Source of the DNA: a virus
IMG/VR virus record: IMGVR_UViG_3300043570_002242
Location: 1 to 54,317 of that record
Direction: 5' to 3' (one strand)
Length of the DNA: 54,317 nt
Below the pieces are notes generated by a model. The model was not told the origin of the DNA, did no database searches, and saw only the letters and a list, made by a program, of their open reading frames with translations. A program made the position numbers and the translations under genes. Below, in pieces: positions 8,179 to 52,374 of the stretch (position 1 is its first letter; each line of letters begins with the position of its first letter).

Positions 8179-9861
8179 ATGCCCTCTTCTAAGAAAAATT
8201 CCGACATTCAGTACAAGGCTGCACCGCAAGGAATGGTGAATCTTGACGAAGCCGAAGGCATCGTTGAATGTTTTGTCGCAGGTATTGGTAACAAGGACTC
8301 AGTCGGCGATGTTTGCGCCCCTGGAGCTTTTGGCAAGAGCCTAATTAGGCGTAAGCCTCGCGTTGTTTGGGGTCATAACTGGAACGACCCAATCGGTAAA
8401 GTCCTTGATATGTATGAGGTTCAGCCAAGTGACCCTCGTCTTCCTAACAAAATGAAGGCTGCCGGAATTGGTGGCTTGTATGCCCGCGTTCAGTTCAACT
8501 TGAAGTCAGAAAAGGGCCGCGAGGCTTTTGCAAATGTGGCATTTTTTGGCGAAGAACAAGAATGGTCAATCGGCTACAAGACGATTAATGCCAAGTTTGA
8601 CCCACAGATGCAAGCAAACATTCTGTATGAAGTTGAGCTTTACGAAGTTTCTCCAGTTCTTCATGGTGCCAACCAGCTGACAGGAACAATTTCAATAAAG
8701 TCCGAAGACCAGTCATCAACAGTTTTAGTAAACGAACAACCATCTATCGACGGCCTCAACATAAATGAGCTTTCTTCAGTTTTAGATGCGTTGAAGACGA
8801 TTGCGTCCACCACAGATGAAAAGTGTGGACCCGGAATGCCAATGGGCATGCCTGCGCAAATGCCAATGGTGATGCCATCTGGTGGACCAGGAATGCCTTC
8901 TGTATCAAAACCAACACAACCAACCGCCCCAAGAGAGTCCGTGAAGCCAGAAGTTCCATCAATGCCGGAAAACCCAATGCTTGTAGCAATTAGAAGAGAA
9001 TTGGTCGACAGGACTGGTTCAAATATTATTGTTCGTTCCGTAATAGAAAACATAGTTGTATTCGACAGAATTACTACTGATGGAATTTCTAGTACTTATA
9101 AACTTCCTTTCAACTATGCAAACAATGAATTCATGTTTGGTAAGCCAGAGAAGATAAACACACAGCCAACTCCAGAGTCAAGTATCCCAACAATGCCAGG
9201 AATGCCTCAACAGTTCGGCGGGTTCGATACTGGAAAATCTTTGATTTCGTTTGATGACTTTTCCTGGGTAGGTTTTAACCAGCAGATACCAGCTCAACAA
9301 GTTGATATATCTACGCTCAACAATGTCATCAGTAATCTTGAAAAGATTATCGAAGAGAAGTCGACATACATAATCCCCGTTGACATAAACAACGCATTTG
9401 AAGTTAAGCAAGCAATTGACCCAATTCTTGATTACTACAGAGTTGATGCAACTGTTACTGAAGACGGCATCGTTGTTAAGTCTCTTGATAACGAGTTCCT
9501 TGACGCAATGGACATTGCCACAAAGGGTGTGTTGCGCAGTATCGGCAACATGGTTGGCCGTGCGGTAGATAGACCAAACATTGGCAAAAATAGGCGTGAT
9601 AGAAATCCTAACCTCGCATCAAGAGGTCGAGGAATTGGTTCCCGTGGAGCTGTAGTAAGACTCGCCGACGGAACGATGTGGGACCCAAAAACCGCACCGG
9701 ACAGGAACAATAACGGCATTGTAGGTGAAGGCCTTACAGACGGTCGCGGCATGTCTCTGTCCCAGCCGGACCCAACACCAAGTGGACCCAACTCAATCGA
9801 TGCTCCAAAGACACCTAAAGCCCCTAAAGCTCCAAAGAAGGCTACAAGACTTTCTTCTGGC
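8179..9861 (+). other. Polyprotein 1 segment 1: prohead protease plus linker (residues 1-561)
   Basis: Residues 18-180 match HK97-type prohead proteases (S78/U35 family): DEAEGIVECFVAG, His66 in the VVWGHNW motif, Ser130 in EEQEWSIGYKT, and the late block ELYEVSPVLHGAN. His and Ser are the expected catalytic pair. The protease normally cuts the scaffold or delta domain and itself during capsid maturation. Residues 210-390 hold Met-Pro-rich linkers and a region I cannot assign. Residues 480-530 contain an Asn/Asp loop (DRNNNGIVGEG) typical of calcium-binding-like turns in phage polyvalent proteins. The first R-L-S-S-G ends this segment. Confidence 0.85.
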
Positions 9862-12800
9862 GGAGATGATTCTTCACGTGCTCGCGACCTTGCTAAGCAA
9901 CGGGAAATGGATAAGGCAAGAGGTGCTAGTGCTACAAACCCAGTAGGAAAAGAAGCCGTCGAGCAAGCCAAAAAACTTGAAAGAGAAAGAGCAGCAGCAC
10001 GTCAATCTGAAACTCGTCTTTCTTCTGGGCGCGTCATAATGTCGGACGGTCAAATGGAAATATCATTTGATGAAGAAGACGGAGATGGCATCTATGACGC
10101 AACAAGAGACGGTTTCCGAATAATTAGAAATGAACGTGGCAGCGGCGGTGGCAGAAGATTCCCAGAATCCACAGCAACGTACGGCGGGTCAGGTTTAAGT
10201 GAAGCCGAGAAAAAAGAAATTCTTGACGTCGTCAAGGATAGTTCCAACCCATTGGTTCAAAAAATATTGAAGGGTTCATTTCCTAGTAGCTTGTCCGATA
10301 AACAGTGGGCTGTTCTTAAAAGGGAATTTGAGAAGAACAAGAAGAAAACTCCTTCTGGCTATATAAGCAATGTCCGAAGCGGTGGAACAGTTGCTCCTGG
10401 AGCAAAACTTGATGGCGGAATTGCTTATCTTGAACCAGACCACGCCAACGACAAAGACTACGAAAACCTACGTGACGCAATACAGACAGCAATGCGCTCC
10501 AATCAGATGCTTCGTTTTGACTACAGTGGAAAAAACAGAGAAGTAATTCCAGTAAAAATTGAGAAGAACAATAAAACTGGTAAGTGGAACTTGACTGCCC
10601 AAGACGACACTGGGGCAAGAAAGCTTTTTAGTCTCGACAAGATAACTCCGTCTTCGGCAGAGCGCCTTTCCTCTGGTGAGTGGACAAAAACTGATGACGG
10701 CATTGAGATGGACGCGCCGGATATTGATGGTGGTTACCTAATACAAGGCAACTCCAAAGATGGATTTGTAGTAACTAGATTTGCGGACGCTAGACGTAAC
10801 GGTGGACAAAATGCTAACGAATACGAACATGACAAAGTTTTCACGTCAAGTAGCGCGGCTAAGAAGTGGGCAGAAAGAAACTACAAACTAATCAGCGAAG
10901 AAATAGGCAAAGAGGACGTAGAAATAAGAAAAGCTGACGCAGAAAGAAGCGCAGACTTTGCAGACATGACTCCAGAAGATGCCGCAGATTATGCCGCTTG
11001 GATGGACGAAGAAACCTGGAGAGACAGGGACCCAAGATTCTCCTCCGGTGAAGGATATTGGGTAGATGCTGCAGAAAAAGAAGCAGGAAATGACCCTAAA
11101 AAACTTGCTGATTTCTTGATTGAACAAGGAATACTTGAAGAAGACCACCCAAGAGTCAAGAAGCTCAGAAACCGTTTAACCGCCGACGACGAGTTTGAAA
11201 AAACATTTTCAATGCTTGCCGAGATGGATGCTGAAGCTGAAGCAGAAAGCAGAGCAGAAAGGCGTTCAACCCAGTTTACGGCTGTAGAAAACCCATTCGG
11301 ACGTCTTTCCTCTGGTCAGAGAACATGGATAGATGCCGCAGAGGATGAAGCAGGAGACGACCCTAGGGAGCTCGCTGATTTCTTACTTGCAAGAGGTGTT
11401 ATCGACGAGGAAGACCACCCAATAATCAAGGGGCTCAGAGATGGTCGTACAGCTGACGATGAACTCGAAAAAGCATACGAAATGCTTGCTGAGATGGATG
11501 CCGAAGACCAAGCAGAACACGCTGCACAGTTTAAGAACGCAGCCTCAGAAGTAAGCAGTCTGACCAAGCCAACAATGCCGGACCTTGATGGAATGGACGA
11601 AGACGAAGCAGGAGATGCGTTACAACAGGCAAATGATGAGATATTAAGTTTTGCTGATGGAACAGAAAACATTGCGAGAGAATACCTTGGAGACGCAGAA
11701 TACAACAAGAGGTTTGGTGGCGCAGTTCCATTAATCGAAGAGATGTCAAAAAACCATGACGGCGGCAATTACGAGCGTGAGATAGCTCTTGAAAACGCAC
11801 TTGAGCGTGCTAATGGATTCAACCTGTCAGTCGCCGGAGAGATGGAATTAGAAAGCAACAGATTCTCTTCTGGTATAGATTTTGACAAGAAAGGTGCATC
11901 AGGCCTCAGGGAGATGCGCCATGTTGAGCGCAATCCACTCAGGATGGATTCATCTGCTGAAAAAGCAGAACGTGATGCATATGAAAAAGATGTTGCTGCC
12001 TTCATAAAGAACAATGGCTGGTTTGTTGAAGTACCGATGTACAACGGTGACCCAAAGTGGCAAAGTGAAGATTGGTATCGCGCAAGAGAGTTTGCTACAA
12101 ACGTTGCAAAATTGCGTTTCGAGGACAACTACCAAAACGAAACTAATCAATTCATGCAGTTCTTTGATAAGCCAGGAAAGCCTTCAAAGAAAGACTTCTT
12201 CGCCAAGAAGGGGACCGTTGATTACAAGTCTTGGTACATGGCTCATACCCCTCTATTGACAAGCGAAATAGACAGCGTTCTTAATTCTGACCTGTACTCT
12301 GACAATTACAAAGAGTCATACATGAATGCTATTCGTTCATTCTTGTATGTAAACAGGCCTGAATTTGGTCCATACGGTGGAGATGACCCCGCTTACCAAG
12401 CATGGCTACAACAGTCGGGTCTTGGTTACGGTGGAAGATACAGCACGTCAGGTCCAAAATTTGACGAAATGGGCAGATTCTCTTCTGGTGCTAAGCGTGG
12501 AAGTAGAAAAGATAACTACATAAATTCTTACGAAAACCCAGAAGACTTGAAAGAAGCAATCTTTTCTGAGCTTATTTTTGCAGGAGACTATGAAGGAATG
12601 ACTGCGGAAGACTTGGCCTACGCGCTAAATGTCAGGGCAGAAAGTGTTGAACCAATTCTTGAGCAAGTCAAAAAAGATGTAGGCGACGCACGGGAAGACT
12701 ACGACCGCTACTTAGAGTCACAACCAGAAATGACTGACGAAGACCTGCAGGCAATGGCGGATGACTATGCTCGCGCACAGACTGTAACCGACAAGTTTAA

Positions 12801-15800
12801 CAACATGACTCCAGAAGAAGCAGCCGATTACGCCGCTTGGATGGACGAAGAAACCTGGAGAGACAGGGACCCAAGATTCTCCTCTGGTAGGGAACTTACC
12901 GACGAAGAAAAGCAAGAACTGGGGGCTCAATTTGCCAGAGCCCAAGACAGGCGAAAAGCTGAACTGGAAGAACGGGGGGCTCAATTTGCCAGAGCCCAAG
13001 ATAGGCGGAAAGCAAAAGAAGACCGCATCACTAAGTTCTACAGGGAGATGGCAGAGCAAAATGCAATGCTTTCAGAAATGACCCCAAGCGAACTCGCGGA
13101 TTACGCCGAGCAATGGAACGAAAGCCATGCAGAAGATTCTCGTCTTTCCTCAGGTGGTATAAACTATTACGACTGGATGGTAGAAAATGGTGTTCCGCGT
13201 TCAGCACTAGACGGTGAAAGGTTCCGTGGAAGAGACGCTTACGGACACTCTTTCCATGACTACTATGCGGAAGATGCTTTTGCAAATATCGACGAAGCAG
13301 TCGTTGAAGCGCTTCTTTCTGACAGAACACAACGAACATCTATTCAGGATTTAGCAAAAGAAGCAAGAGAACATGGGCTTCAACTGGCCACCAACCGCAG
13401 CATGCAGGAAGAGTTCTCCTGGGCTGAGGCAGTAAATCCAAAACCTGAGAGCTTGCGCGCGGAAGATTTGGTTCGTAGACCTGATGACTTAGGCTCAAAC
13501 GCAAGACGCGTAGCTGAAGCAGTTGCTAACAACAGTAATGGCGCAAGAAGTGCTGCGTCTAGAGAAGACATTCTTCATTTTACCTACGATGGTAAACAGC
13601 GCTCTGTGTATCCAGAATCATTTGGGACAAGCAAAAAAGGCATTGCCTTCTTTAGAGCCTGGGACGAAACCGCAGACGATGGCAATGGTGCCTACAGAAG
13701 CTTTAATATCGACAAGATTGAGGGACTGGTTTCACACGCAATACCTCCATATGTTGAAATAGGAACAATGACCCCAGAGCCCAAGTGGAGCATTGCTGAC
13801 TTCAGCATAGAAGACTGGGCAAAAATTAATGACCGGTTCTATTTTAGAAGTAGCGAAGTTGGTCGGGCGGCGTTTGATATTGAGACCGCTATTCAATGGG
13901 AGCTTGAAGGCACTGGAACAAGGGCTCCAGGTTCGATAATCGACACAGCCGAAAGAGAACTAAAGCGCCTCAAGCAAATTGCTTTCGACAAACACATCAC
14001 CGAGATGGTGGAAAAGGGTGCTACAAGTTCAAAATTCTCTCTTGACATTGAAAATGCAAAAAGATACGGTGTAAAGCCACTCAACAGAGGAAATAGACTG
14101 TCTTCTGGCGGTTCGGGCAGGTTCAATATTGCGGAAGCTCGTTCATTTGATGACATGTCAGACAGGGAACAGCTTGCAGTCTTCAACGGAATCAAGGACA
14201 GACTTTCAGAAAATAACCCAAGCATGGTTAGCGTCCTGGAAGACGGCGGACTCAACATCGATGGATATCTTGCAGATTTCCCTCAACTTCACCCAGACTT
14301 CTCTTCAGAAGAAAGCGGCGGAGAAAGGTTCTCTTCTGGTGGTTTTGCACCACCAAAGCCAAAAAGAGCAGCAAGAAAAGATGAAGAAGGCTTAATCGAT
14401 GGCGCAAGAGTCATGCGAGGAAATACTTTCATCGAAAGCGTTGTTGGTCAGTATGAGAGAAATCGTGGAAAACTAAGTGATGCGCAGTGGGCCAAATTGG
14501 CCGAGATTGTTGGAAGAGGTTCTAAACCAACATCAGCCGGTGCTCCAACCCCAAAAAGGCCAAGCAAGGGTCCAAGACTGGAAAAGTACTCTGGTAAGCC
14601 TCGCAAGATAATAGGCATAGACGAAGTTGTACCATACGATTACCCTGAAGCCGAGTTTAAGCCAAACCCAGAACAGGCTGATGCGATTGACGCCATGATG
14701 ACAGGCTCTGACGTAAAAGTTGGAGCTTTAGCAGCAACAGGTAAAACAACAACAGTAATAAGTTTTGCCAATCGTTTGGCCGCTCAAGACCCAAGCGCAA
14801 GAGTGCTTTATTTAGTTTTCAACAGAGACGCCAAGAGCGATGCTGAAGCTCGCGGAATGGGTGACAATGTTTCCGTTATGACGATGGACGGTATTGCGTT
14901 TAAAGCCATGATAGGGGCTGGTGGTTCTCCAGGTCTTAGGCCTGGTCTAAAAACCAAACTGTATGAAGCCGGAAAAGCGTCCATGGATGACTCGGTTAGG
15001 TCGTACGTAGGCAAGGCAGCATATCTTGGAATCAAGGGAGCTTTTATACCGCGAGATGGTGATGCACCACTTGAATTAACTCCCACAGATATTTACAAAA
15101 TTGTTGCTAAAGGCGTAAACGCTTACTCAATAAGTTCAGACGAAAAAATAGGACCACAGCATTTTACTGGGAAATTTAATGGACCTTTAGCAATTCCTGA
15201 AGACAGCCCAATAATGCCTAACGTATTAAAATATGCCAACAAGATGTGGGAAGACCTGCAACAGGATAGGGACAACTTAAAAAAGCAAGGAATGCTTGGT
15301 CTTGAGTCTAACCATCTAACAAAGATGTGGGCACTGACTAAACCAGATGTTGCAAGTTTTGGTGGCACTGATGGCGTAAACGTAATCATGGTTGACGAAG
15401 CTCAGGATATTAACCCTGTGTTTGCAAAAATGATGAAAGATTCTAAGTCTGCACAAAAAATATACATTGGTGACACCAATCAGGCAATCAATGCTTGGCG
15501 TGGAGCTGATGGCTCAACCTTGGATGCAGTAGAAGCTGAATACGATATGCCGATAACCGAATCGTACAGATTCGGAGCGAAGATAGCAGGCATAGGCAAC
15601 AGGTTCTTGACTTTGCTTGGGGTAAAAGAACGCATGACCGGAAAAAAGACAAGAGCAGGCAAAAACGGCTCTCGTGTTGATGTTCCAGGTGAAGTTGTTA
15701 CCGAAATGAGCGTTTTAGACGCAACAATGATTCTTTGTCGCAGCAATGGTGGAGCCATAGCCGCAACCATGGAAGTAATTGAAGAGGGTGGCGGACAAAA

Positions 15801-18800
15801 GAAAGTTTACGGAAGCGCAAATTTCAAAAAAGATTTACAAAACTTTATTGACAATATTGAGTGGATGCAGAATGCCGAAAAAGGCGAACCCTATTGGACA
15901 AATTCTCGCGGAGAGAGAATGACAAGTAGGCCAGAATTCAGCGCGGACCTTGAAGGAATAACAACGTACGAAGAATTTAAAAAAGAAGTTGCTTCTGCGG
16001 ACAATAACAGACTAAACATGCTCGATGGTTTATTGGAAAAGAATTCAATACCAGGACTACGTAATGCTTTAGACAATATTCTCACAAGAAAAGAAGACAT
16101 AGAAAAGCTAGACCCTAACGATTATGTAAAGATACAAACAGCACATACATCAAAAGGCCTTGAATCTGGAAAAGTGAAAATTTGGTCAGACTTCAGAAAG
16201 CCAAAATTTGACGAAGAACTCGAAGAATGGGTTATGCCAAACGAGCAGGAACTTAGGTTGTCTTATGTTGCTGTAACTAGAGCAGAAGAAGAAATTGACC
16301 TCGGTTCACTCGATTGGGTTTTTAACCACACAACAGATGCAGACGAGAAGCCAAACGCTCGTTCCGCCAGGTTGTCTTCTGGAAGAAGCATTGCAAGAAG
16401 ACAGGGCAAGGGCAAGAACAGTCGTGCTCGTGGACAGCGTCCATGGAGCGATGAAGACCGTCAAAACTTTGCTGATGGCAATAGGCTCCGTGCTCAAACA
16501 ATTCCAGGCAAGCGCCGTGAGGGACCTGCAGCAGCAGAATTCTCTTCTGGTGAAAGACTTTCTGCTGGTGGTTCTGGATTCTATCTCGACAACCCACCAG
16601 ACGACGACTCCGATAAGTGGATAGACATGGCAAGCGACGATTACAGGTCTATATCTGATTCATGGAGGGATTTCCCAGAAGAAACAGATGAATTCCTTTC
16701 CGACTTTTGGAGCTCTCATGAAACATGGGGCCAAAACCCTCCATCGCCATGGGAATTTACTGCAGAAAATCTTTCAGAAATAACAGACATTTTTGAAAAC
16801 ACGCAAAGACCTTCAGCATACGAGCCATACTATAAGCAATTACGCGACTTAGAAGGCCTTCCAAAAGAAGACATAATTAAAGCGTTAAAACAAATACGCG
16901 AAGACGATGATGACACGCAAATGTTTGTGGAATTCTTTAACAAAGATGTTTTTGAAGTTGCCGAAGAAAAAGAAGCACCACTTGGTAAGTATGTCCTTGA
17001 GGCATTGCAAGAATGGAACAACCTCCCCAAATGGCTAGAGAATAGCCAAACGGACGACGGTTACACTCGCCCGTACAGGTTCTATTCTGGAGCCCGTTTT
17101 GCGCCAGATGGCGAGTCGGGTTCACGAATCCAAAGAAGACTTTCTTCTGGAGAATACTTTGGACCACCTCCAACCGGCAGCGGCAAGTACAACAGCAGAG
17201 AACAGGTCCGCGCATCGTTGGATGCGTTCCACAGTGACCCGGGTACCGCAGTAATCCCGTCCGACATGCTGGGCATACTTGGTTCTGTTCCAAAGGGTAA
17301 GGAATCTCATATTCTTAATGCAGAAGTTGCAAAAAAGATTATTGCTAATCCAGATATGGAATATTCGTCAAACAACGGCTGGCCCGTTGACGCAGGCAGG
17401 CTTCTTGACTTTATTGAAGTAAACGAAGAAGATGCCATCAGAACTCTTCGCGAAATTGGAGACGCTCAACGTATTTCTTCAATTCTTGGCATACCAGAAA
17501 AAGATGCGCAAGACATGCTTGACGGCAAGCCCGTATACATCATGGCGGGAACGGCTGCAGACATGCTTGACGACCTCAAGGAAGGAAAACATTACCTAGA
17601 GGCTGGCCAGCTTGGTAATGAGGACGTAACAAGAATCTGGGGATTTGATGGTGCTCCAAAGTGGGTTCGCCATAGCGATATCGCTACCCCGGAATATGAC
17701 CTTGACGAACAAGGCAGGGTTAACTGGTCTAAAGAAAAATGGGACAGTCTTTCAAGAGAACAATTTGATGCTGAACTAGCAAGAGGCAAAAACCCACCAG
17801 AGCCTGTTTACGAATCTCCAGTAGAGCGTTTTAACTCGGAAGCAATTTTTGACAACCCTAAGTGGAATGCTCGTAGTGGCTCGTTCAGGAACCCAGTAGT
17901 GGATTCAGAATTTGCAGTAGCACCACGAGCCGCAAGAAGGTCAGAACAGCTAGAGCCAACGAGAGCACCATCTCAGGCAAGAGTTGGCGAAAAAACCGTA
18001 ATGGCTGACAAGGAATTTGCAGCAAAGTGGATTAAGCGTGGACATAGCGTTACTGCTTCAAACATGATGGACATTCTTGGGGTTGAAAGAGATTCTAAAA
18101 ATCCAGAACCTTCAACTGAAGAGCTGAACAGGCTTATTGAAGCAATGAATGAAGTTAGTGCAAAAGTAGGACTGACTCCTTTGTCGGTCACAAGGGCACC
18201 AACAAAAAGTGACCTTAAAAAATTGGGAATTTCCGACGAGTTTATGCATGCTCTTGTTGCTTCTGGAAAGTTTAAGAACATGAAAGAAGCAATGGCAAGT
18301 CTTGGTGATTCAAGATTTGATTCATTGGCTGCCGAATATGACTCAAGAATGCTTTCCGATGCCGCTTTGTTGAGAATAAAAGACAAAATGAACAAAGAAG
18401 GCGTTCCCAATTCAGTAGCTGTTCTGATTGAGGCAATTACTGCTTCTTTTGGCCGCAAGCAAGCATGGGAAAAGCGAATCAAAGAAGGTCGCGTATCCAT
18501 CAAGGGTGACATGAAGGAAGACGGAATGATTAGCGATGCTAAACTTTCTGAACTGCTTGGGCGAGTGAACGATGCTCTCGCAAGGTCTGGATACCCAGAA
18601 ATAAGTCAAGACGAACTTTTCCCCAAGGACGAAACTGGCGGATATGTTGACAACCTTAGCTCTGCTGTTCCCGGTGCGCCAAGAATGTCTTCAGGTCAAA
18701 GGTTTGTAGCAAGAACATCTTCAAGCAGAAGAGCTGACGCTATGAACGATGCTGCTGCTCGTAGAGAAGGCAATACTTCTCGACTTTCAAGCGGAGAAAG

Positions 18801-20697: not shown

Positions 20698-20723
20698 CAT
20701 TCAACACACATACACCGCAATAC

Positions 20724-20752
20724 TTACTCAAATGATACGTTTAGAGTATAAT
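20724..20752 (+). promoter_or_regulatory. Candidate promoter upstream of the scaffold-like gene
   Basis: A perfect TATAAT lies at 20747-20752 in an 87-base AT-rich gap between the first giant gene and the next. The -35 region at 17-bp spacing (TTACTC, 20724-20729) is poor. Initiation near 20759 would give a leader of about 25 bases with AGGAG at 20771-20775. An internal promoter would raise synthesis of a scaffold-like protein above that of the polyprotein. Confidence 0.5.
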
Positions 20753-20784
20753 TTACGGTACTTACGAATTAGGAGTCATCTAAT

Positions 20785-22461: not shown

Positions 22462-22478
22462 AGCAAGGACGACCCGAC

Positions 22479-25400
22479 ATGACGGGTACGTTTAAGACTA
22501 AAACAAGAGTCTATACATCACCTGAATTTTTTACCCCGATAACGGGCCGAAAGAGTTTTACAGACGCCGCTATCGACTTTAGACGCGGGCTTATAGAGAA
22601 CTCTTCCATGGCCGTTCTTAATGCTGACCTTTCTGTAAAGGCCGCAATGGGGGCGGGTCTTTCTGCTTCTGCTTCATCCATAGGGCAATCGTCTCAAGGA
22701 ACATCTCCAAATACTGACGGTAAAAAGCGTGTCAACAAAGGCGGCGTTCCGGGGATGGTTGAGGACGAGCGTGGATTTAGGTACATGCCCGATGCAACAT
22801 GGGGTCCAGACAAAGTTCTCAAACTGTTTCCTTCTCCAGAAGAAAGACAGTCTTCTAATAAAGTTCCAAACTTTGGTTTTGTAGACAGAGAACCAATTTT
22901 TACTCCTCAACAGTTTGTTGAACAGATGGAGAAAAAACCCAAAATCAGGATGTCTAAGTACAAAATAAATACACGTACTGGCGAACCCATAGAAGACACT
23001 GAAGTTGAGTTTGACCGAATGAGGTTTGGTAAAACTTTTAAAGTAAACCCAGACATCTCTAACGAAATAGAAGAAGACATATCTGACGAAACATCAGGAG
23101 AAATGCAAGAGAAGAGTCTTGGCTCGACCCTGAAGCAAAGAATGCCAGGTGCAACTATTGCTGGTAGAGCAGCCGCTCGCTTTGGTGTGATTATGGATGA
23201 GCTTGGGAAGATGCGTTGTCCTCCTGGGACTCCAGCGGCAAACCAATTCACTGACATGACAGGTTCTAACTGTTTTGGAATAACTCCAGGAAATATGATT
23301 TCTGAGGCAATCAACCTTGCGCAAAGACTAATTCCATCCGATGATTCAAGACGTACTGATGGTTTTACCAGAGGGGTAGCCAACTTCTTCTTCGACATGG
23401 AGAATGGCATATTTGGCAACAACGTCTGGTATCACCCAGACGGAACCAGAATGAAGCATGGTGAATGGCGTAAGTTCCGTGAAGCTAACGGTGTTGCAAG
23501 AAACGAACGCTGGATGGTCAACGGCGTTGAGCGTGTTTATGCAGAGATTGACGCTCAAGAGGCGCGCTTGACCGACCTTTATCAAAAGCTTGACATTGAT
23601 ACAAGAGACAGCAGAAAAGCAACAAACGAACATCTATACGAGGCGTTTGAAAAACTAGAACAATCAGGCGTTATAACGGCAAAGATTGAAGGCAGGCCTA
23701 CTGAGGCTGATGTTGAAGCAATGATGACTTCACGCCTAAAAAATACCGACGCACACTGGAACACTCGCTCGAATGAAGAAAAAGCACTGTTTCTCAAAAT
23801 TGAAATTCAAAGATATAGAGAGCTTGAGCGTGCGCACCTTGAGGCTTTCCTTGATGAGGTAATCAAAAATCCTGAACACATGAAGTCTATCCGGGCAGTA
23901 AGAATGCATCCAACCGGCAAAGACAGAGCTTCGTATGGCATAGACGGCATAGACAGAAGAACCAATATGCCTTACGGTTCAATCAATATAGACATACCTA
24001 AATCAATGGAATTTGAAGACTCTCTTCTTCCAGCTCTCTCCCCTGATGAAAGACTCAGAATATGGGCAGAAGGAGGGATGTCTGAGGCACTCAGGTCTTC
24101 CACTGTAAAAGATTTCCTTGTTAACTCAAACGCCTATGCCGGTCAGATGATAGCAATGGTCGACGGCGGTCGTGGTCTTGGCCGCCATGATATGAAGCAC
24201 GAGATAGCTCACTCGATTCAGGCTGCAGCCATTTTTGAACACATGAAGAGAGAACTTGATGCTAGGGGTTCTCTTGTTATGAACACCAAGAATGGACCCA
24301 AGACCATTACAAGTGTTGCCGAACTCGATAACGACATGCTTGCTGCATTAATGATAAATGAAAACTATATGGGGATTGACCTCGATTCATTAAAAAGCCT
24401 CCGTTCTAGAGGGGACATTGTTGCGTTGTTGGGGGGTAAATATATTGATGACGTTGACAATCAATATGATGGCAAAAGGCGTGCTGCTGAAATAGGTGCA
24501 GAAATATGGGCACTTCGAAGCGCAGGTTTAATATTCGGAGATGACGTAGACGCGGCTCTTGAGTACATGGACGATGTTGCTTCTGGAAAAATAACAGCAG
24601 ACAGAACAGTTGCAGACAGCGTTCTTACTAGAAGAGTTTACGATGACCATTTAGACGGTACCAGGAGAGTTCGTGAAGCTAGAGAAGCCCGCGAAGCTGC
24701 TGAAGAAGCAGCAAGGCTGGCCGAAAGTGCAGATACTCCAGATGAAGAATTTTTTGATGCTGATACCAGGGCTGCAGAAGACAGGATGTCTGATGCCAGG
24801 GAGGCATATGCTCTAGAAAAACGTGCAGAAGTAAAAACCACAAAAGAACAAGCCAAGACAATGACAGAAGAAGAGATGATTGATTTTCTCTCTTATTCAA
24901 CAGAAGGTTCTGACGCTCTTACGGAAATGCTTGATGCAGCCGGAGAGGCCGGTGAAGAGCCGGACTGGATGAGCGTCATGGATAGGGACACTCTTGATGC
25001 GCAGTCAAAATCCGTAATAGATGAGTGGGTAAAGCGCTTTACAGTTAGAAGAAGTCCTGAAGCCTTAGAAAAACTATTAAATATGGTTGACGACAAGCGT
25101 GAATCAAGAGGAACACTTTCTCCTGAAAAAATAGAAGAACGTCGTCATCGTGAATACCTAGAGGGTGCTACGGAACGAGCAAAGGACTTGGACTTAGAGG
25201 ACCTCGTTGAGTTCTCTTCAAACTGGGAAGAACTTGCTTCATCCGAAGGGATTGAGGCTCCAGAGCGCACTCGTAGAAAAGAAGCACGCGACATGTACAG
25301 GGATGAGTACATCAAGAGAAGAACAGAAGGCCCTGATTCTGTTTCTAGAGAAGATGCCCGCAAAGAGTTTAATGCAAAATTAAAAGAACTGCGCAAGCCA

Positions 25401-26459
25401 AAAACTACTGCTGAACGCAAAAAACGAGACAGGGTTAAGCCAAAGAAGTTCAATAGCCACAAAGGCAAGGATGGGGCACACACTTTTGCCACACAAGAAA
25501 GAGCTCGCCTACTGGAAGGCGCAACAACAGCAGAAAAGATTGCTTTTGTTGAAATGGGCAGTGGTGAAACCGATGTAATAAACATGATGGCCGGCCATTC
25601 TGAAGGAATGGCTTCTGCACGAGCAATACAAAGAAGAAATACTCGCCTTAAAAAAAATGGCATCCTGCCTGATGGCCTCAATCAACACGAGGCTTCAGTA
25701 GAGGAACAAGTAGAAAACTTCTATATTCCACTTCTTGAGCTGATGGATAAATCTTCACTATCTCAGATGGTGGAAATGCACCTAGACGGTAATGAGGATT
25801 CTGGACTATATATAGAAGACCTGCTTAGCGGTAATGCCCCAGAATTTACTATGGGTATAGGCACCGGAACCTTAGTAACAAACAAAACAGATTTTTCTGA
25901 CGGCAAGAAGATAGTAATCCGCGTGCCAGCAGGAAGCAGAGCTTTATTACCTGACTGGTCATATCGTTCCGACTCCGACGACGGAGAACAGAAGATAATG
26001 ATTCCTCCTTCAAAGCTTCACCTTGTTGAGATTCGCGATGATGGAACTGTTGTTCTTGAAGTCGGCGAACAGATGGGAACAGAAGCAACGTTAAAAACTG
26101 CAATAGAAGAAATAGGTCCTGGAAACGGTGGAGCAGGAGATGTTGCCTATAGGACAGGTCTTCAGAAAAAACTAAACAAAGTTGTCGACAAAAGAATCAC
26201 AGAGCGCCGCCGACAGGGGATGTTCGACCCCGATAGTAAGTCTCCAATTGAGGAAGAAAGATTCAGCACAACAGCAGACACTGCTGCAACTGGTGCTGGG
26301 TTTATGCCGGATAGGCCTCCTTCTGCTCCAAGTCGTGCCACCACCGATAGGGGCGACATAGGAACTGGCGACTACGATGACGATTTAAGCCCAGCTGAGC
26401 GCAGATTCCAAAGGGAAGAAAGAAACAGAAGAAGAGGAAACCCAAGACTTTCTTCTGGA
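22479..26459 (+). other. Polyprotein 2 segment 1: large N-terminal region (residues 1-1327)
   Basis: Residues 247-265 form a Cys-pair motif (CPPGTPAANQFTDMTGSNC) that recurs in other proteins of this window. HEIAH at 574-578, preceded by RHDMK, reads as a zincin active site, though the third ligand is not obvious. Residues 740-830 and 950-1050 are long charged helices. Residues about 1110-1165 (GIGTGTLVTNK, IVIRVPAGSRALLPDW, GEQKIMIPPSKLHLVEI) resemble the C-terminal half of VIP2/MuF-type ADP-ribosyltransferases, but I see only part of the catalytic set. Assignments are by eye and tentative. Confidence 0.5.
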
Positions 26460-29400
26460 GCTGATACTGAAAAACTTGTTTCAATATCTGGTCCGCAAGA
26501 TGCTCGCAGGGTTATTGATAGCAACCTGCCAGCATCAGTTAGAACTGAAAAAGAAGCATATACCATTTTGACTGAACTTGCAAAAATGGCTAGGGAAGCC
26601 AAGGCAAAAGGGAAAGACGCTCCTAATTACGATTTTTGCAAAGTTTCTATTCCGGGAACAAACCTATTTTGCGGTGACTCTAAGGGAATTCCTAGAAAAA
26701 AAATGCCTCAGTTTAGTGGGAAGCCAACTCCTGGTTCACCAGCAGATTCAAGACCCAAAGATAAAGATGGCGGGGTCGACGGCACGCAAGACTTTATTAA
26801 ACACATGGAAGGACTGGGAGTAAAAGTCGAAGAAAAAGAAGTTCTTGCGTCAACGTTAAGAGCATCCCAGAATGAACTAGTTGGAGAAAAAGTCGCAGGG
26901 ATGATGACCAATGAGAACTTTGACCCTGCAGGTGAACCAATTTTTGTTAGCCGAGATGGTTATGTTATTGACGGTCATCATAGATGGGCCGCCCAAGTTG
27001 GTCGAGACCTTGAAGACGGAAACCTTGGTGACCTTCCATTAAACGTAAAAGTTGTGGACATGGACATCTTGGAAGTTCTTGAAGAAGCAAACAAATTTGC
27101 TCAAGAGTTTGGTATTGCTCCCAAAACAGCAGGAAACGACGCGGCCCAAAACAGGTTATCTTCTGGTGCCAAATGGGGGCAGATGCCTTCAAACAATCAA
27201 CAACTTGCTCGCCTTCTTGAGCCATCAAATAATGATGGCTTCAACGAAATATACGGCCCTCCACAGACACGCCAAGAAAGAATCACCCAGATGGCTGAGA
27301 TGCAGTCAGAAGTGATGACTTCTCTGCGTGAAATGTTTGACAACGTTCCAGGAGCAGGAGATTCTCTTGGACTTGACCTGAACCACATAGACCCATACCT
27401 TGTTGACTTCATTAAGAATTCTTCAGATGAAGAAATTTATGAACTTATTTCTCAATCCGCAAAAAACCTTCATGAGAGTTTTGACGCACGACCACGAGTG
27501 CGCATGAGGCAAGACGAGCTTGATGGGTTTGCCGCTAGCGGCAGGTACGGAAGAGAAAAATCTTTTAATAACGAGCGTTTCTCTTCTGGTCTTGTAAAAA
27601 AGGGTATAAAAGCAAGGGCCAAAGAACGTGCCATAGAAATAATTGCCGACAGAATTGGCATGGATGAAGACTCACGCGAAGTGGCAGAGATGGTGTTCAA
27701 TACGGCCTCTGCACTCAAGTACGGCCCAGAAGCAGCACTTACTCGCTTGGCTATAGACCTCGGAAGAAGAGGAAGCAGAGAACTTGCAGAAAAAACCGTA
27801 GAAGAACTTGTTAAGCGAGGAAAAATAACCGACGAACAAGCAAAATCTATTCTTTCAAAACTGGACAAGGTTGCACCAGAAGGACTTCCAGAACCATTAA
27901 AGCGCGGTGTTGGAAGAGCAGCAAGAGCAACAGCAGATGCTATTGATACTCCAGAGAACAGAGAGCGCTTAGAAAATGCCCGTGAAGCAGTCGGAGAAGC
28001 CGCTGGAAGAGCGAGAGAAGCGGTTGGTGAAGGTGCCCGCAATATTGCTGAGCGTGGCCGTGAGAGGCTTAGGAAGCTCCGTGAAAGAGACGATGCCGGA
28101 AGTCTACCTTCTGCACCGGAAGATGTACCGTTTGGTGATTTTGACCCAGCAGATGCTCCCGTAGGAAGACTTGCTAGCGGAAGAAGATTGGATAGAAGAG
28201 TTTCTGGTTCGGATAATGGTCGCGAACGCATTATGGAAGGCGCAAACGTAACTCGCACCCGCCTAAGTAGTGGTGAGACGCCAAAGATAGACAAGCCGAA
28301 GAAGCCAAGCAGGCCAAGAGACCCCGACAACGGACCAATGACTGGAAAGTTCATTGACATATTCCGTGGCGTTAAGTCATATCAAGAAATGCTTGACAGA
28401 TATAACGAGCAAGAAGTTATTTTCTTTGACTACGAGACAACAGGTTTTAGCCCTACGGACGATAGGCCTGTTCAGATTGGTGCAGTAAAAATGAAGGGCG
28501 GGAAAGTCGTTGAAAGATTCAATGTTTTTGTTAACCCCGAAAAAGAACTTAGCGACTGGTCAAAGGAAAATCTACTTAATGCTGACGGTAAACCTCTAAC
28601 CAACGACTGGTTATCAGGTCAATCTTCAGTCAACGAAGGCCACCAGCAGCTTATTGACTTCTTTGGCCCTGATGCCCTCCTTGGTGGACAGTACACGCCT
28701 TTTGACCTTGGCTTCCTTGAAGAGTCACTAAAGAACGCAGGAATTGAGTGGACCCCTGCTGGAGTCATAGACAGCAAGGCCCTTGCTGATGAACTTCTTC
28801 CAAGATGGACAGCAGATGGCGGAGATGGTCCTTTTGCTCTTAACCCAGATGGCACAAAGTACGCAACAAATAGCCTTGGACCGCTTTCTGATTATCTTGA
28901 AGTCGAACTGACAGCATGGCATACAGCAGACGCAGACTCTGAAGCGTCAGCAATGATTGTCCAAAAGATACTTGAGCGTGCAGCAGAAAGAGAAGACACT
29001 CCAAAACATCTTCTTGATGTTGACAACCTTCCATCTGTTGTTGCTGAACGCAGGGCTAGACACAAGCTCGACATGGACAAGTACTTTGCCGACCTAAAGC
29101 AGTACAAGGTTGACAATGAAGCATACGAAGCTTCTCAAACCGGAGAAAGACTTTCTTCGGGAGCAACCATGGATGACAAACTAGGGAAGACTGTCGGTAT
29201 TGACGAACTTCTTGCCGACCCAACAATGGCTGAAGAATTACGCAAAAGAAGCGCGGACATAAAAGCACTTTCTGACAGGGAAAGAGCACAAAGATTTACC
29301 GACCCTAACGACCCAGACTCTATCTATGTAATTCACTTTGGAGCGAGCCAATTAGAAGGCGGCCAAATAGACCCTGCTCGTTCGCGAGGGCAGGTGGGTT

Positions 29401-31232
29401 CAAACGTCCCTGCGGCAGGAAATACACGTTTGGTAAATGACCAGACAGCCAGATATATGGTTGGATTACGCAATACCGCAAGACGAGACCTGTCTATTCT
29501 GGAAGAAATAAAACGTCAAATGGAGACTGATGGAGTTGTTGACTTTGAGGCGATAGCAAGAACAGACCCGAAAGACTCCATGAGGGCGGGAAGAGCAAAA
29601 ATATTGCTTGGTGTTAAACGTACTGACCGTGACTACGAGCGTTCAACGTTCACGCCTCCTTACTGGAACCCTGAAAATTTTGACGCTCAAATCGCAAGCG
29701 AAAACAGAACCCTATCTAGTCTTGACAAGGTTGCCGACCAGTTAATTGCAGACGACTACCAGTACACGAGTACATACAGGGCTTCTGGATTACGAGATTT
29801 ACGGAGCTCTTACGGAGGGAGGTACGCAGAAGGCGGCTCTACAGAATGGGGCGACAACTCGCCGCGCTCGTCAACTACCGGTATTCACATATTAAAAGTA
29901 AAAGTAGGCGACAACGCGATTGAGCAAAATAGCGTTGGAGAAACTCACCTTGTTGGTAAACACACCCCAGTTGCTTCACTTGTCGTGAGGGCAGATGATT
30001 ATGATGATAATCCTGCTAATGACACATGGACCGGATGGATGGATATGGCGATTGAGGCCGACATCAAGAAAGGGTCAGGTGAGAGGCTTTCTTCCGGTGC
30101 AACAGGACGTTCCCCAGGACTAAAAACAAACCGCGACAGACCCATGAGTGAATACGGAATGGACTGGAAGCCTGAGTATTCAGATAAAGAGTGGGTCAAG
30201 CCAGCAAAAAATTGGGAAGGATGGGATGATGTCCCTGTTACTGAAGTTGACTTGTCTTCAGAAATCCGCCCAACAGAGTCACATCTTAAAGGTTCCTCTA
30301 TAGACAAAGTCGTATCTGGAGAAGAAGCTTTCAGAGATGGCTACCATCCAAACGTAATCATAGATACCGATGGCAAGATGTACGTATCTGACGGACATAA
30401 CAGAGTTGCAATGCACCGCGCTCTTGGCAATGAAAAGATGACAGCAAGAGTTATCGACCTCCGTACACAAGATGCTCCATGGGGAGACAAGACTCCGAAT
30501 ACAGCCGAAACAAGACTTTCTAGCGGAGAAGGCCCACGGTCAGGAAAGCCAAAACGAGCAAAAATGTACAAGGGCTACACATTAAACGAACCAGCCAACC
30601 CAACTCCAAAACCAGGCGAATACCCAGACGACGTGGTGGAAGCAGCTACCAAGCAAAGGGCAAAAATAGCAGAGGTAGAAGCGGAAATCACCAAGCTTCT
30701 TATTGACCTTGCCGACAAGAACAAAGCACAGATGGAAGGTCTTGACTTTAGGATGAAAGCCCTCAACTCGCTAATGCGCAAGATAGCCGCAGAAAAAGAC
30801 AGCGAGCACGGTGGAGACGCACAAAAAGCAGCAGAAGCGATGTCTGACGTAGTTAGATACACAATGTCCTACGAGCCAGACGACTACGTTGCCGGCGTCA
30901 AGGACGTTATTGCTCAAATGCAAAAACTCGGGTATGACCTGAGGGTAAAAAATTACTGGGAAGCCGACGACCCGTATCAGGGAATCAACGTCGCGGCAAT
31001 TCACCCTAACGGAACAAAATTTGAACTTCAGTTCCACACTCCTCAGTCTGTTGCCGATAAAGAGAAGATTCACGCAATCTACGAAGATTACAGAACCGAA
31101 AAAGACTACCTAAAGCGTCTGGTTATGTACCGAAAAATGGTAAATTTAGCTAACAAGATTGGCGTCCCAATTCCACCAGATGAGCTTATGAAAATCGGCA
31201 TCATCAAAACGCAACCATTTACACCGAGGTAA
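22479..31232 (+). CDS. Giant polyprotein 2: ParB-like, DnaQ, RelA/SpoT-like and peptidase-like domains
   Basis: The ATG lies 17 bases after the previous stop with AAGGA upstream, and gives 2917 residues. Seven exact R-(L/F)-S-S-G motifs start at residues 1323, 1559, 1700, 1928, 2224, 2536 and 2679, plus RLASG at 1897. The first 1322 residues are uninterrupted by the motif. Recognisable parts are an HEIAH metallopeptidase-like motif at 574-578, an ART-like region near 1110-1165, a ParB-like domain near 1498, a DEDDh exonuclease at 1980-2155, a second ParB-like domain near 2638 and a RelA/SpoT-like C-terminus. Unlike polyprotein 1 it has no protease of its own, so processing would be in trans. 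It shares domain types with known polyvalent proteins. Confidence 0.9.
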   Translation: MTGTFKTKTRVYTSPEFFTPITGRKSFTDAAIDFRRGLIENSSMAVLNADLSVKAAMGAGLSASASSIGQSSQGTSPNTDGKKRVNKGGVPGMVEDERGFRYMPDATWGPDKVLKLFPSPEERQSSNKVPNFGFVDREPIFTPQQFVEQMEKKPKIRMSKYKINTRTGEPIEDTEVEFDRMRFGKTFKVNPDISNEIEEDISDETSGEMQEKSLGSTLKQRMPGATIAGRAAARFGVIMDELGKMRCPPGTPAANQFTDMTGSNCFGITPGNMISEAINLAQRLIPSDDSRRTDGFTRGVANFFFDMENGIFGNNVWYHPDGTRMKHGEWRKFREANGVARNERWMVNGVERVYAEIDAQEARLTDLYQKLDIDTRDSRKATNEHLYEAFEKLEQSGVITAKIEGRPTEADVEAMMTSRLKNTDAHWNTRSNEEKALFLKIEIQRYRELERAHLEAFLDEVIKNPEHMKSIRAVRMHPTGKDRASYGIDGIDRRTNMPYGSINIDIPKSMEFEDSLLPALSPDERLRIWAEGGMSEALRSSTVKDFLVNSNAYAGQMIAMVDGGRGLGRHDMKHEIAHSIQAAAIFEHMKRELDARGSLVMNTKNGPKTITSVAELDNDMLAALMINENYMGIDLDSLKSLRSRGDIVALLGGKYIDDVDNQYDGKRRAAEIGAEIWALRSAGLIFGDDVDAALEYMDDVASGKITADRTVADSVLTRRVYDDHLDGTRRVREAREAREAAEEAARLAESADTPDEEFFDADTRAAEDRMSDAREAYALEKRAEVKTTKEQAKTMTEEEMIDFLSYSTEGSDALTEMLDAAGEAGEEPDWMSVMDRDTLDAQSKSVIDEWVKRFTVRRSPEALEKLLNMVDDKRESRGTLSPEKIEERRHREYLEGATERAKDLDLEDLVEFSSNWEELASSEGIEAPERTRRKEARDMYRDEYIKRRTEGPDSVSREDARKEFNAKLKELRKPKTTAERKKRDRVKPKKFNSHKGKDGAHTFATQERARLLEGATTAEKIAFVEMGSGETDVINMMAGHSEGMASARAIQRRNTRLKKNGILPDGLNQHEASVEEQVENFYIPLLELMDKSSLSQMVEMHLDGNEDSGLYIEDLLSGNAPEFTMGIGTGTLVTNKTDFSDGKKIVIRVPAGSRALLPDWSYRSDSDDGEQKIMIPPSKLHLVEIRDDGTVVLEVGEQMGTEATLKTAIEEIGPGNGGAGDVAYRTGLQKKLNKVVDKRITERRRQGMFDPDSKSPIEEERFSTTADTAATGAGFMPDRPPSAPSRATTDRGDIGTGDYDDDLSPAERRFQREERNRRRGNPRLSSGADTEKLVSISGPQDARRVIDSNLPASVRTEKEAYTILTELAKMAREAKAKGKDAPNYDFCKVSIPGTNLFCGDSKGIPRKKMPQFSGKPTPGSPADSRPKDKDGGVDGTQDFIKHMEGLGVKVEEKEVLASTLRASQNELVGEKVAGMMTNENFDPAGEPIFVSRDGYVIDGHHRWAAQVGRDLEDGNLGDLPLNVKVVDMDILEVLEEANKFAQEFGIAPKTAGNDAAQNRLSSGAKWGQMPSNNQQLARLLEPSNNDGFNEIYGPPQTRQERITQMAEMQSEVMTSLREMFDNVPGAGDSLGLDLNHIDPYLVDFIKNSSDEEIYELISQSAKNLHESFDARPRVRMRQDELDGFAASGRYGREKSFNNERFSSGLVKKGIKARAKERAIEIIADRIGMDEDSREVAEMVFNTASALKYGPEAALTRLAIDLGRRGSRELAEKTVEELVKRGKITDEQAKSILSKLDKVAPEGLPEPLKRGVGRAARATADAIDTPENRERLENAREAVGEAAGRAREAVGEGARNIAERGRERLRKLRERDDAGSLPSAPEDVPFGDFDPADAPVGRLASGRRLDRRVSGSDNGRERIMEGANVTRTRLSSGETPKIDKPKKPSRPRDPDNGPMTGKFIDIFRGVKSYQEMLDRYNEQEVIFFDYETTGFSPTDDRPVQIGAVKMKGGKVVERFNVFVNPEKELSDWSKENLLNADGKPLTNDWLSGQSSVNEGHQQLIDFFGPDALLGGQYTPFDLGFLEESLKNAGIEWTPAGVIDSKALADELLPRWTADGGDGPFALNPDGTKYATNSLGPLSDYLEVELTAWHTADADSEASAMIVQKILERAAEREDTPKHLLDVDNLPSVVAERRARHKLDMDKYFADLKQYKVDNEAYEASQTGERLSSGATMDDKLGKTVGIDELLADPTMAEELRKRSADIKALSDRERAQRFTDPNDPDSIYVIHFGASQLEGGQIDPARSRGQVGSNVPAAGNTRLVNDQTARYMVGLRNTARRDLSILEEIKRQMETDGVVDFEAIARTDPKDSMRAGRAKILLGVKRTDRDYERSTFTPPYWNPENFDAQIASENRTLSSLDKVADQLIADDYQYTSTYRASGLRDLRSSYGGRYAEGGSTEWGDNSPRSSTTGIHILKVKVGDNAIEQNSVGETHLVGKHTPVASLVVRADDYDDNPANDTWTGWMDMAIEADIKKGSGERLSSGATGRSPGLKTNRDRPMSEYGMDWKPEYSDKEWVKPAKNWEGWDDVPVTEVDLSSEIRPTESHLKGSSIDKVVSGEEAFRDGYHPNVIIDTDGKMYVSDGHNRVAMHRALGNEKMTARVIDLRTQDAPWGDKTPNTAETRLSSGEGPRSGKPKRAKMYKGYTLNEPANPTPKPGEYPDDVVEAATKQRAKIAEVEAEITKLLIDLADKNKAQMEGLDFRMKALNSLMRKIAAEKDSEHGGDAQKAAEAMSDVVRYTMSYEPDDYVAGVKDVIAQMQKLGYDLRVKNYWEADDPYQGINVAAIHPNGTKFELQFHTPQSVADKEKIHAIYEDYRTEKDYLKRLVMYRKMVNLANKIGVPIPPDELMKIGIIKTQPFTPR
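26460..27167 (+). other. Polyprotein 2 segment 2: ParB-like domain (residues 1328-1563)
   Basis: The segment starts with a helical part and the Cys-pair motif CKVSIPGTNLFCGDSKGIPR (Cys1387 first). The ParB/sulfiredoxin-like fold follows, with GYVIDGHHRWAAQ around Asp1498. The DGHHR motif is the nucleotide-binding or nuclease signature of this fold. ParB-like domains of polyvalent proteins are thought to act as nucleases or NTPases in conflict. Confidence 0.75.
27168..27590 (+). other. Polyprotein 2 segment 3 (residues 1564-1704)
   Basis: A 141-residue helical segment (QTRQERITQMAEMQSEVMTS, then DLNHIDPYLVDFIKN) ending in NERFSSG. No family is recognised. Confidence 0.45.
27591..28181 (+). 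other. Polyprotein 2 segment 4: Ala/Arg/Glu-rich helical segment (residues 1705-1901)
   Basis: Long amphipathic helices rich in Ala, Arg and Glu fill the segment, including two near repeats of REAVGEAAGRA / REAVGEGARNI near residues 1840-1860. It ends in the variant RLASG. A DNA-coating or membrane-active helical peptide is possible from composition; nothing is proved. Confidence 0.45.
28182..28274 (+). other. Polyprotein 2 segment 5: 31-residue basic peptide (residues 1902-1932)
   Basis: A short Arg-rich peptide between RLASG and RLSSG (RRLDRRVSGSDNGRER and on). It resembles the short basic segments 13 and 16 of polyprotein 1, so short basic spacers appear in both giant proteins. Confidence 0.4.
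28275..29162 (+). other. Polyprotein 2 segment 6: DnaQ-like DEDDh exonuclease (residues 1933-2228)
   Basis: Exo I is Asp1984 and Glu1986 (FFDYETTG), with VQIGAV and a long strand following. Exo II is the GGQYTPFDLGFL region, and exo III is His2148 with Asp2153 (WHTADADS). This is the complete DEDDh set of 3'-5' exonucleases. A basic linker with KKPSRPRD precedes it. The domain fills its inter-motif segment, as the helicase does in polyprotein 1. Confidence 0.85.
29163..30098 (+). other. Polyprotein 2 segment 7: unassigned, possible ADP-ribosyltransferase-like fold (residues 2229-2540)
   Basis: A 312-residue globular segment. SIYVIHFGASQLEGGQIDP near residue 2285 and a later strand GIHILKVKVGDNAI resemble the start and middle of ART-like folds, but I cannot find a convincing catalytic Glu motif. 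The alternative is an unrelated alpha-beta fold. Confidence 0.35.
30099..30527 (+). other. Polyprotein 2 segment 8: second ParB-like domain (residues 2541-2683)
   Basis: The segment contains PNVIIDTDGKMYVSDGHNRV followed by AMHRALG. SDGHNR (Asp2638) is the ParB/sulfiredoxin signature, like DGHHR of segment 2. It is compact, about 140 residues, and ends in ETRLSSG. Confidence 0.7.
30528..31232 (+). other. Polyprotein 2 segment 9: RelA/SpoT-like domain (residues 2684-2917)
   Basis: The C-terminal segment has a helical first half with DVVRYTMSYEPDDYVAGVKD. Then come VKNYWEADDPYQGINVAAI and FELQFHTPQS (Glu2849, His2853), which follow the RelA/SpoT nucleotidyltransferase pattern of a substrate loop followed by E-x-Q-x-x-T. 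Such domains make alarmone-like nucleotides or pyrophosphorylate RNA. Whether the active site is intact I cannot say from sequence alone. Confidence 0.6.
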
Positions 31233-40373: not shown

Positions 40374-40780
40374 GCGAAAGATTTTGGTACGGAGCAACGG
40401 TTCTTGGTGTTGTAGACGGAGACACGATAGACCTGATGATTGACCTCGGTTTTAACATTCATCACAAAATTAGAGTAAGACTCTATGGTGTAAACACGCC
40501 CGAGTCAAGAACTAAAGATTTGAAAGAAAAAGAGCTAGGCCTGAAAGCCAAAGAATTTACAAAAGACTGGCTGTCTAAACATAAGTGGGTTTATGTAAAT
40601 ACCATCCCTGACAAGAACGATAAGTACGGCCGTGTTCTTGCAAAGATTTATACCGATGAAGCGATTGCCAGACCAGAGGTCGCTTGCCTAAACGAGGACA
40701 TAATACAGTCTGGTTACGCACGTGAGTATTTTGGGGTTGGCGACAAAACGTGGACAGAGTTCAAGAAAGAGACTAAGTAA
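40370..40780 (+). CDS. Staphylococcal-nuclease-like (SNase) endonuclease
   Basis: The 136-residue protein matches the SNase fold: VVDGDTIDLMID with Asp16, Asp18 and Asp21, RVRLYGVNTPE with Arg37 and Glu45, and DKYGRVLAKIY with Arg88. The Arg-Glu-Arg catalytic set and calcium-binding Asp residues are all present, so it should be an active calcium-dependent nuclease. There is no signal peptide, so it acts in the cytoplasm, for instance on host nucleic acid or phage recombination intermediates. It overlaps the preceding gene by 4 bases (ATGA) and the next by 1 base. Confidence 0.88.
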   Translation: MSERFWYGATVLGVVDGDTIDLMIDLGFNIHHKIRVRLYGVNTPESRTKDLKEKELGLKAKEFTKDWLSKHKWVYVNTIPDKNDKYGRVLAKIYTDEAIARPEVACLNEDIIQSGYAREYFGVGDKTWTEFKKETK

Positions 40781-51152: not shown

Positions 51153-51170
51153 CTGTGAAAGGAAATAGCA

Positions 51171-52346: not shown

Positions 52347-52374
52347 CAGATAAATTTAAATAAGAAAGAAGACA

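Follow-up and report, generated by a model that had tools for sequence, protein, structure and literature searches.

In SPN3US, phiKZ and T4, the substrates of the prohead proteases (gp245, gp175 and gp21, respectively) are head proteins, which are cut at motifs of three residues. Gp245 also removes the propeptide at its own C-terminus; C-terminal self-cleavage has been reported for both SPN3US and phiKZ, and the SPN3US protease favours Ser at P1' (PMC10052503, PMC5694885). In these phages it is mostly N-terminal propeptides that are removed from separate proteins, by a cut after Glu. For the polyvalent proteins that phages and conjugative elements encode, processing has been proposed as well, either by their own zincins or by C-terminal assemblin-like peptidases (Iyer et al., 2017, PMC5512222). 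In phage P1, the prohead protease Pro cuts DarA at its N-terminus (PMC12810830), and DdrB is described as processed (PMC5512222). These Dar proteins are anti-restriction head proteins that are ejected with the DNA. RNA-virus polyproteins carry a virus-coded protease inside the chain and a repeated cut motif at domain borders.

Our study concerns a window of 54,317 nucleotides (the whole stretch of DNA analysed, IMG/VR virus record IMGVR_UViG_3300043570_002242), in which two giant proteins, A and B, recall each of these systems. As in SPN3US, phiKZ and T4, a head protease, a short motif with three key positions and many head substrates are predicted, here from sequence; the differences are that up to ~50 motif copies lie between the modules of two to five giant chains, that the key residue is Ser and that the protease is usually fused to a chain. 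The L/S/A-X-E signature, cut C-terminal to Glu, does not describe the repeated motif, which has Ser/Gly and no Glu but may work in a similar way. Unlike RNA-virus polyproteins, the chains belong to a dsDNA tailed phage, their proposed cutter is a capsid-maturation protease, and they carry accessory or effector domains, not a whole proteome. Like P1 DarA and DdrB, their products are proposed to be processed head proteins, but the P1 proteins come from separate genes with single cuts and form no multi-site polyprotein. The combination of ArdC-N, MPTase-PolyVal, helicase, ParB-like, RelA/SpoT-like and other domains in a single chain is typical of polyvalent proteins, whereas in the present system the prohead protease sits at the N-terminus and the MPTase is dispensable; a repeated recognition motif is not mentioned in the portion of the polyvalent-protein survey considered here (PMC5512222).

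The closest annotated phages are Gordonia phages GMA6, DalanDe and FlyingTortilla and Brevibacterium phage Cantare (portal ~40-44%, capsid protein 50-52%, S78 protease 38-41%), in which the motif was not detected, accessory proteins are mostly separate genes and the backbone of protein B is absent. No phage of the motif-bearing clade was found among cultured records. Gp48 of Streptomyces phage Gilgamesh (4624 aa, portal-adjacent) was considered as a cultured example and rejected, as it has no repeated motif. We found no description of phage polyprotein processing in the literature searched, subscription papers being mostly outside its scope. The parts (prohead protease, polyvalent proteins, motif-directed head maturation) are known, and it is their combination into multi-site chains with a lineage-specific code that appears to be new.

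Results

Two giant proteins between the portal and capsid genes

The genes for A and B sit between those for the portal and the major capsid protein (Table 1). Protein A may alternatively start at a TTG at 8089, giving 4202 aa; in this numbering its Peptidase_S78 match (37 bits for a cut-off of 21) covers residues 58-201. An initial reading of the sequence alone had placed an HK97-type prohead protease with His66 and Ser130 at the start of protein A, rightly so: the match lies there, and an alignment of relatives with 38 rows shows both residues (ATG numbering) to be invariant. Protein C is a probable scaffold, judging from its acidic composition and a C-terminal segment resembling the tail of the GMA6 protease-scaffold ORF.

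Proteins A and B carry several conflict-type domains per polypeptide (Pfam, PHROG), as polyvalent proteins of phages do. The putative motif 12 cut point comes 6 residues after the end of the helicase domain, and that of motif 16 comes 1 residue before the start of the ArdC module. In AF2 models, two motifs tested in A (1 and 2) and the two in B that flank the exonuclease (20 and 21) fall in segments of pLDDT <50, the models being weak elsewhere; that of B residues 1720-2917, made from a thin alignment, is good for the exonuclease and partly so for the RelA-like part.

Table 1. Positions of the motif copies and other features in the window.
Feature	Position	Strand	Remark
Portal gene	6007-8079		
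Protein A (putative polyprotein)	8179..20697	+	4172 aa from ATG; S78 protease unit, then cassettes split by 16 R[LFM]SSG
Peptidase_S78 prohead protease domain	8260..8691	+	PF04586 E 4.7e-9; phrog_3244 head maturation protease
Motif 1 RLSSG	9847..9861	+	protease-unit end; pLDDT below 50
Motif 2 RLSSG	10015..10029	+	pLDDT below 50
WYL-like domain	10474..10647	+	weak, under curated cut-off; ends 9 residues before putative motif 3 cut point
Motif 3 RLSSG	10663..10677	+	
Motif 4 RFSSG	11035..11049	+	
Motif 5 RLSSG	11302..11316	+	
Motif 6 RFSSG	11860..11874	+	
Motif 7 RFSSG	12475..12489	+	
Motif 8 RFSSG	12874..12888	+	
Motif 9 RLSSG	13141..13155	+	
Motif 10 RLSSG	14095..14109	+	
Motif 11 RFSSG	14326..14340	+	
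UvrD-type helicase	14644..16362	+	phrog_1967 E 6e-64, Pfam UvrD; wholly within motif 11-12 interval
Motif 12 RLSSG	16369..16383	+	
Motif 13 RLSSG	17137..17151	+	
Motif 14 RMSSG	18682..18696	+	
Motif 15 RLSSG	18781..18795	+	
Motif 16 RLSSG	19540..19554	+	directly 5' of ArdC module
ArdC N-terminal domain + MPTase-PolyVal zincin	19555..20430	+	Pfam E 6e-26 and 7e-43; phrog_7245 E 1e-79
Protein C	20785..22461	+	probable scaffold; acidic; without motif
Protein B (putative polyprotein)	22479..31232	+	2917 aa; backbone 1-1323 without motif, then seven cassettes split by 7 motifs
HEIAH zincin motif, B backbone	24198..24212	+	HExxH at equivalent position in all motif genomes inspected
Motif 17 RLSSG	26445..26459	+	opens cassette common to window and L065
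ParB-like segment	26625..27107	+	phrog_2859 E 1e-18, weak ParB families
Motif 18 RLSSG	27153..27167	+	
Motif 19 RFSSG	27576..27590	+	
Motif 20 RLSSG	28260..28274	+	precedes exonuclease module; pLDDT below 50
RNase_T (DnaQ-type) exonuclease	28419..28958	+	Pfam E 1e-13
Motif 21 RLSSG	29148..29162	+	follows exonuclease module; pLDDT below 50
Motif 22 RLSSG	30084..30098	+	
Motif 23 RLSSG	30513..30527	+	
RelA/SpoT-like domain (weak)	30750..31064	+	Pfam E 0.0025, under cut-off; phrog_7625 E 7e-26
Major capsid protein, HK97 fold	37209..38579	+	phrog_10, PDB matches; no SSG motif
L-S-S at capsid-protein delta-domain/N-arm junction	37488..37496	+	kept as L[ST]S across LSSG clade
tRNA-Ile (anticodon tat) gene	51080-51153		
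tRNA-Met gene	52273-52347		

One pentapeptide repeated in the linkers

Exact R[LFM]SSG occurs 16 times in A and 7 times in B (16 RLSSG, 6 RFSSG and 1 RMSSG), compared to a mean of 0.018 and a maximum of 1 in 500 shuffles of the two proteins, which bears out the 23 exact and at least four near copies counted in the initial reading. RLSSG and RFSSG are the top two 5-mers of the pair, and the other 5-mers shown, barring those that overlap the motif, occur at most twice each. The near copies are RYSTS (1450), EFSSG (2817), RLSAG (2823) and NLSSA (3522) in protein A and RVSGS (1907) in protein B. All other listed ORFs of the window, including those for the portal, protein C and the capsid protein, are free of R[LFM]SSG. 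The recognised domains hold no copy either (P = 0.003 for random placement), in support of the earlier statement that the copies always lie in linkers.

The copies had also been said to use different codons, and 21 of the 23 15-mers are indeed distinct; yet at the DNA level the copies resemble each other more than expected from codon usage (similarity 0.70 vs 0.60 in the window, z = 5). The same excess is seen in the relatives L012, L065, L113 (z 10), L121 and L139, is weak in L134 and L159 (z 1.8) and is absent from L152 (z -0.4). Part of this likeness probably stems from the copying of cassettes or from recombination at the linkers, with the peptide itself probably maintained by selection at the protein level.

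Motif dialects in related phages

When IMG/VR was scanned with the portal, about 135 loci were retrieved, and a scan with the capsid protein added 80, some on the same contigs. The comparison covers ~160 related contigs, and portal-to-capsid segments were read in 23 genomes. In well-sampled genomes, a single motif dominates and is common to the giant head-region proteins of that genome; the counts of competing dialects per genome are mostly near chance, and the classes are near-exclusive by genome. The window group uses [LFMI]SSG, L113 and L121 G[ML]RS (about 50 copies), L134 LRSSG, L108 GS[KR]S[TS]T (GSKSTT), L152 RGMAS, L156 G[FM][SA]S and L138 GFAS. Copy number is low in L071, L059, L138 and L156, and a clear motif was not seen in L151. 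A scan for close relatives with the L079 polyprotein returned only its self-match. As in the window, the lineage motif is absent from the portal, scaffold and capsid protein in the portal-to-capsid segments of relatives.

On alignment, the dialects have a common core, hydrophobic - S/R/A/K - Ser, in which the serine is kept in every dialect. In L055/L065 glycine takes the place of the basic residue, in L108 the hydrophobic residue and S give way to S and K, and serine stands in place of the core hydrophobic residue in both L108 and the L110/L112/L115 group. Compared in this way, RLSSG is one dialect within a wider code. Motif class tracks the S78 clades, a pattern that general phage ancestry would also give. 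One motif-bearing polyprotein (L068:12148-17118) contains pentapeptide-like repeats (A-N-L-x-G/A).

Sites change together and modules are exchanged between them

When homologous stretches of polyproteins of different dialects were compared, 90 of 185 motif sites aligned within 12 residues of the partner's own motif, with a mean of 13.4 and a maximum of 30 when the partner's sites were shifted circularly 300 times; the motif regexes are loose for some classes, and a few of the 90 are due to chance. At one such homologous pair, GKPGRRPLE-GLRSR in L113 faces GKPGKRPLA-GFSSE in L156. The linker ahead of a C-terminal module reads GFSSS, GFAST, TLRSSG, GMRSE or SMRSQ depending on the lineage, and the homologous exonuclease module is followed by ASQTGE-RLSSG in the window (motif 21) and by ASQSGA-SKSTT in L108. 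This replacement of dozens of sites in concert implies a trans-acting reader whose specificity has drifted, most simply a protease.

Among relatives of the same dialect (>=60% identity), 41% of homology breakpoints lie no more than 10 residues from a motif, compared to 9% expected, and 57% no more than 20 residues away, compared to 18%. In protein B, swaps run from motif to motif: residues 1324-1555 are exchanged with L065, 1559-2240 with L012 and 2238-2547 with L055, and further exchanges with L065 involve 2528-2683 and 2685-2914. Splits of the chains into separate genes also fall at or near motif sites. The standalone protease ORF of L144 ends at the position of the first ALRSL in the fused L159, L162 and L143, the L065 ORF1 stops shortly past GLSSG, and RLSSG opens the frame of ORF2 in L068. 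Thus, as in polyproteins, a single repeated motif marks the module borders, and the comparison of sequences implies that it is read in trans.

Candidate readers of the motif

S78 is present as a single locus in each of 28/28 records, motif-free cultured relatives included. On the co-occurrence of motif and protease, which the initial reading had put forward as a check, no motif-bearing relative without the protease was found. S78 is also kept in motif-free phages, namely the cultured relatives and two MAG contigs (L300 and L301), so that its presence or absence does not single it out. The L300 and L301 contigs, from Gammaproteobacteria MAGs, have a standalone S78 (66-72%) without motif, possibly an ancestral-type layout. 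A comparison of S78 residues with motif class gave A83 and A86 as the top covarying columns, with just one supported independent pair. A PDB fold search with the AF2 model of the protease, of moderate quality, listed herpesvirus proteases among its matches, the best at a non-significant E of 0.62. The first motif marks the C-terminal border of the protease unit, where the standalone protease of L144 stops.

The MPTase-PolyVal domain (PF18818) was rejected as a general processor, since it was found in just 12/28 records and not in 11 motif-bearing ones, some of which are fragments. The zincin of the B backbone, recognised from its HExxH pattern alone with no family match, accompanies the motif more closely: the backbone gave no tblastn match in cultured phages, nor was it seen in L300 and L301, two motif-free loci that reach only ~10 kb past the protease.

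The major capsid protein has a possible cut site of its own, the L-S-S at its delta-domain/N-arm junction. In a linker that is otherwise variable, capsid proteins of the LSSG clade have L[ST]S[RSH]EI[KR] just ahead of the [ST][IV]G that begins the N-arm, in keeping with a shared cut site in this one clade. A shifted register, with the cut before the invariant Ser (between X and S[IV]G), was considered too; the residue before S/T is too variable in capsid proteins to favour either register. Outside the LSSG clade, which represents a single origin, capsid junctions lack the motif of their own lineage, and since the junction motif is confined to this clade, capsid covariation was not used as support.

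Discussion

We consider it fairly probable that A and B are viral polyproteins of a tailed phage that are cut at the linker motifs, most likely by S78, to give head-borne products. The wider proposal, to which we give slightly better than even chances, is that of a clade of tailed dsDNA phages in which two to five giant chains are cut at up to ~50 sites by the prohead protease, the cleavage code changes across the sites in concert when lineages split, and cassettes are swapped between one cut site and the next. A and B would be folded cassettes strung on disordered linkers, with one short recognition peptide per linker and, in protein A, the S78 protease and a conserved tail placed ahead of the cassettes. 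A phage protease, most likely S78, would recognise a peptide ending around the invariant serine (hydrophobic - S/R/A/K - S, here [LFM]-S-S-G), which is where we infer the exact bond to lie. S78 would first free itself at motif 1, both chains would be cut at every linker in the prohead, during head assembly, and the ~25 products of A and B would remain packaged in the capsid and then enter the host with the DNA. We prefer S78 as the cutter since the cleavage of head proteins at short motifs is an established activity of prohead proteases, with SPN3US gp245 removing its own C-terminus, and since the protease unit is followed by the first motif at the place where standalone versions end. Against S78 stand the Glu cut residue of T4, phiKZ and SPN3US, compared to Ser/Gly here, the equal constancy of the B zincin among motif genomes, and the lack of the lineage motif in the capsid protein outside the LSSG clade; the case is built from sequence throughout.

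The sequence-only reading took the motif to be the cleavage site of the prohead protease. Its first half stands well, in that the motif, by its place at module borders, its avoidance of domains, its positional homology and its concerted change, behaves like a site of processing by a phage factor that acts in trans; its second half is weaker, as the pattern of presence and absence fits the B zincin at least as well as S78. Processing at the motif by the HExxH zincin of the N-terminal backbone of B, in the head or after injection, is accordingly the alternative to be taken most seriously, although we judge it unlikely. HExxH is found at the equivalent place of the backbone in all motif genomes inspected, the backbone was unseen in cultured and L300/L301 loci and so tracks the motif better than S78 does, and zincins were proposed to process polyvalent proteins (Iyer et al., 2017, PMC5512222). 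However, B is itself one of the putative polyproteins, so that co-occurrence is partly built in, the L300/L301 loci are short, the identification lies in the HExxH pattern, and cutting in trans at a motif by such a zincin is without precedent. S78 is also favoured by its place at the head of the chain and by the standalone form, which ends at the motif.

The concerted change could also be explained by a trans-acting reader that does not cut, for example a scaffold or capsid for which the motif would serve as a docking or cargo-loading tag on uncut chains, as capsid-targeting sequences do for T4 internal proteins. The location of the genes in the head operon, in the portal-capsid interval, agrees with this, but an uncut chain would need a single tag, and a tag at each cassette border, with none in the interiors and gene fissions at the borders, is better suited to cutting; we therefore regard docking as improbable. 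For a loading tag, other conserved segments near the N-termini of these proteins (CPPGTPAANQFTD..C; DGDNDG..ERP) appear to have the more suitable position. The first, C-P-x-G-x(4-5)-[QR]FTD-x-C, is found in residues 247-265 of B (nt 23217-23273) and in ORF 33612-35612 of the window and recurs in most relatives, near the N-termini of both B-type backbones and a conserved ~670 aa protein; this cysteine-framed segment is a possible shared loading tag. The second, D-x-D-x-DG...E-x-x-ERP, is found close to the start both of several polyproteins and of capsid-adjacent proteins (L055, L108, L113, L143, L144, L152, L159 and others) and is present in the motif-free L300 too.

Less credible still is the idea that the motif is a device or by-product of recombination, with linker DNA homology driving cassette swaps and the peptide having no function. 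Module swaps do happen at motifs, and motif DNA exceeds the codon-usage expectation in the window and most strongly in L113, but the peptide is kept with no excess in L152 and a weak one in L134 and L159, the DNA differs in 21/23 window copies, and at homologous sites the peptide is replaced residue by residue with the serine always retained. A linker signal for some other reader, such as a kinase or a protease of the host (R-L-S is similar to basophilic kinase sites, and any reader of shifting specificity would produce concerted change), is highly improbable, since the basic residue is lost in L055/L065, the hydrophobic residue and S become S and K in L108, and motif class tracks the clades of the phage protease, albeit confounded with general phage ancestry.

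If cutting of the chains by S78 is borne out, polyprotein processing would have evolved in tailed phages as it did in RNA viruses, with the capsid protease as cutter and effectors as cargo, and sequence alone would show where many unknown effector domains of phages begin and end. The lineages would also offer a natural series of proteases with differing cut codes (LSSG, MRS, LRSS, SKST, MAS and FSS) for the study of specificity, together with dozens of substrates that change with them. The specificity of prohead proteases, known here for few phages, would become directly testable across lineages.

Segments of two standalone ORFs of the window, 39309-40373 and 40780-41145, resemble, when compared by eye, insertions in the protease ORFs of L144 and L054, respectively, which suggests an exchange of modules between the chain and standalone genes. 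Outside the head region, the translation of window ORF 48215-49336 contains an HExxH-like motif, HEWSHH.
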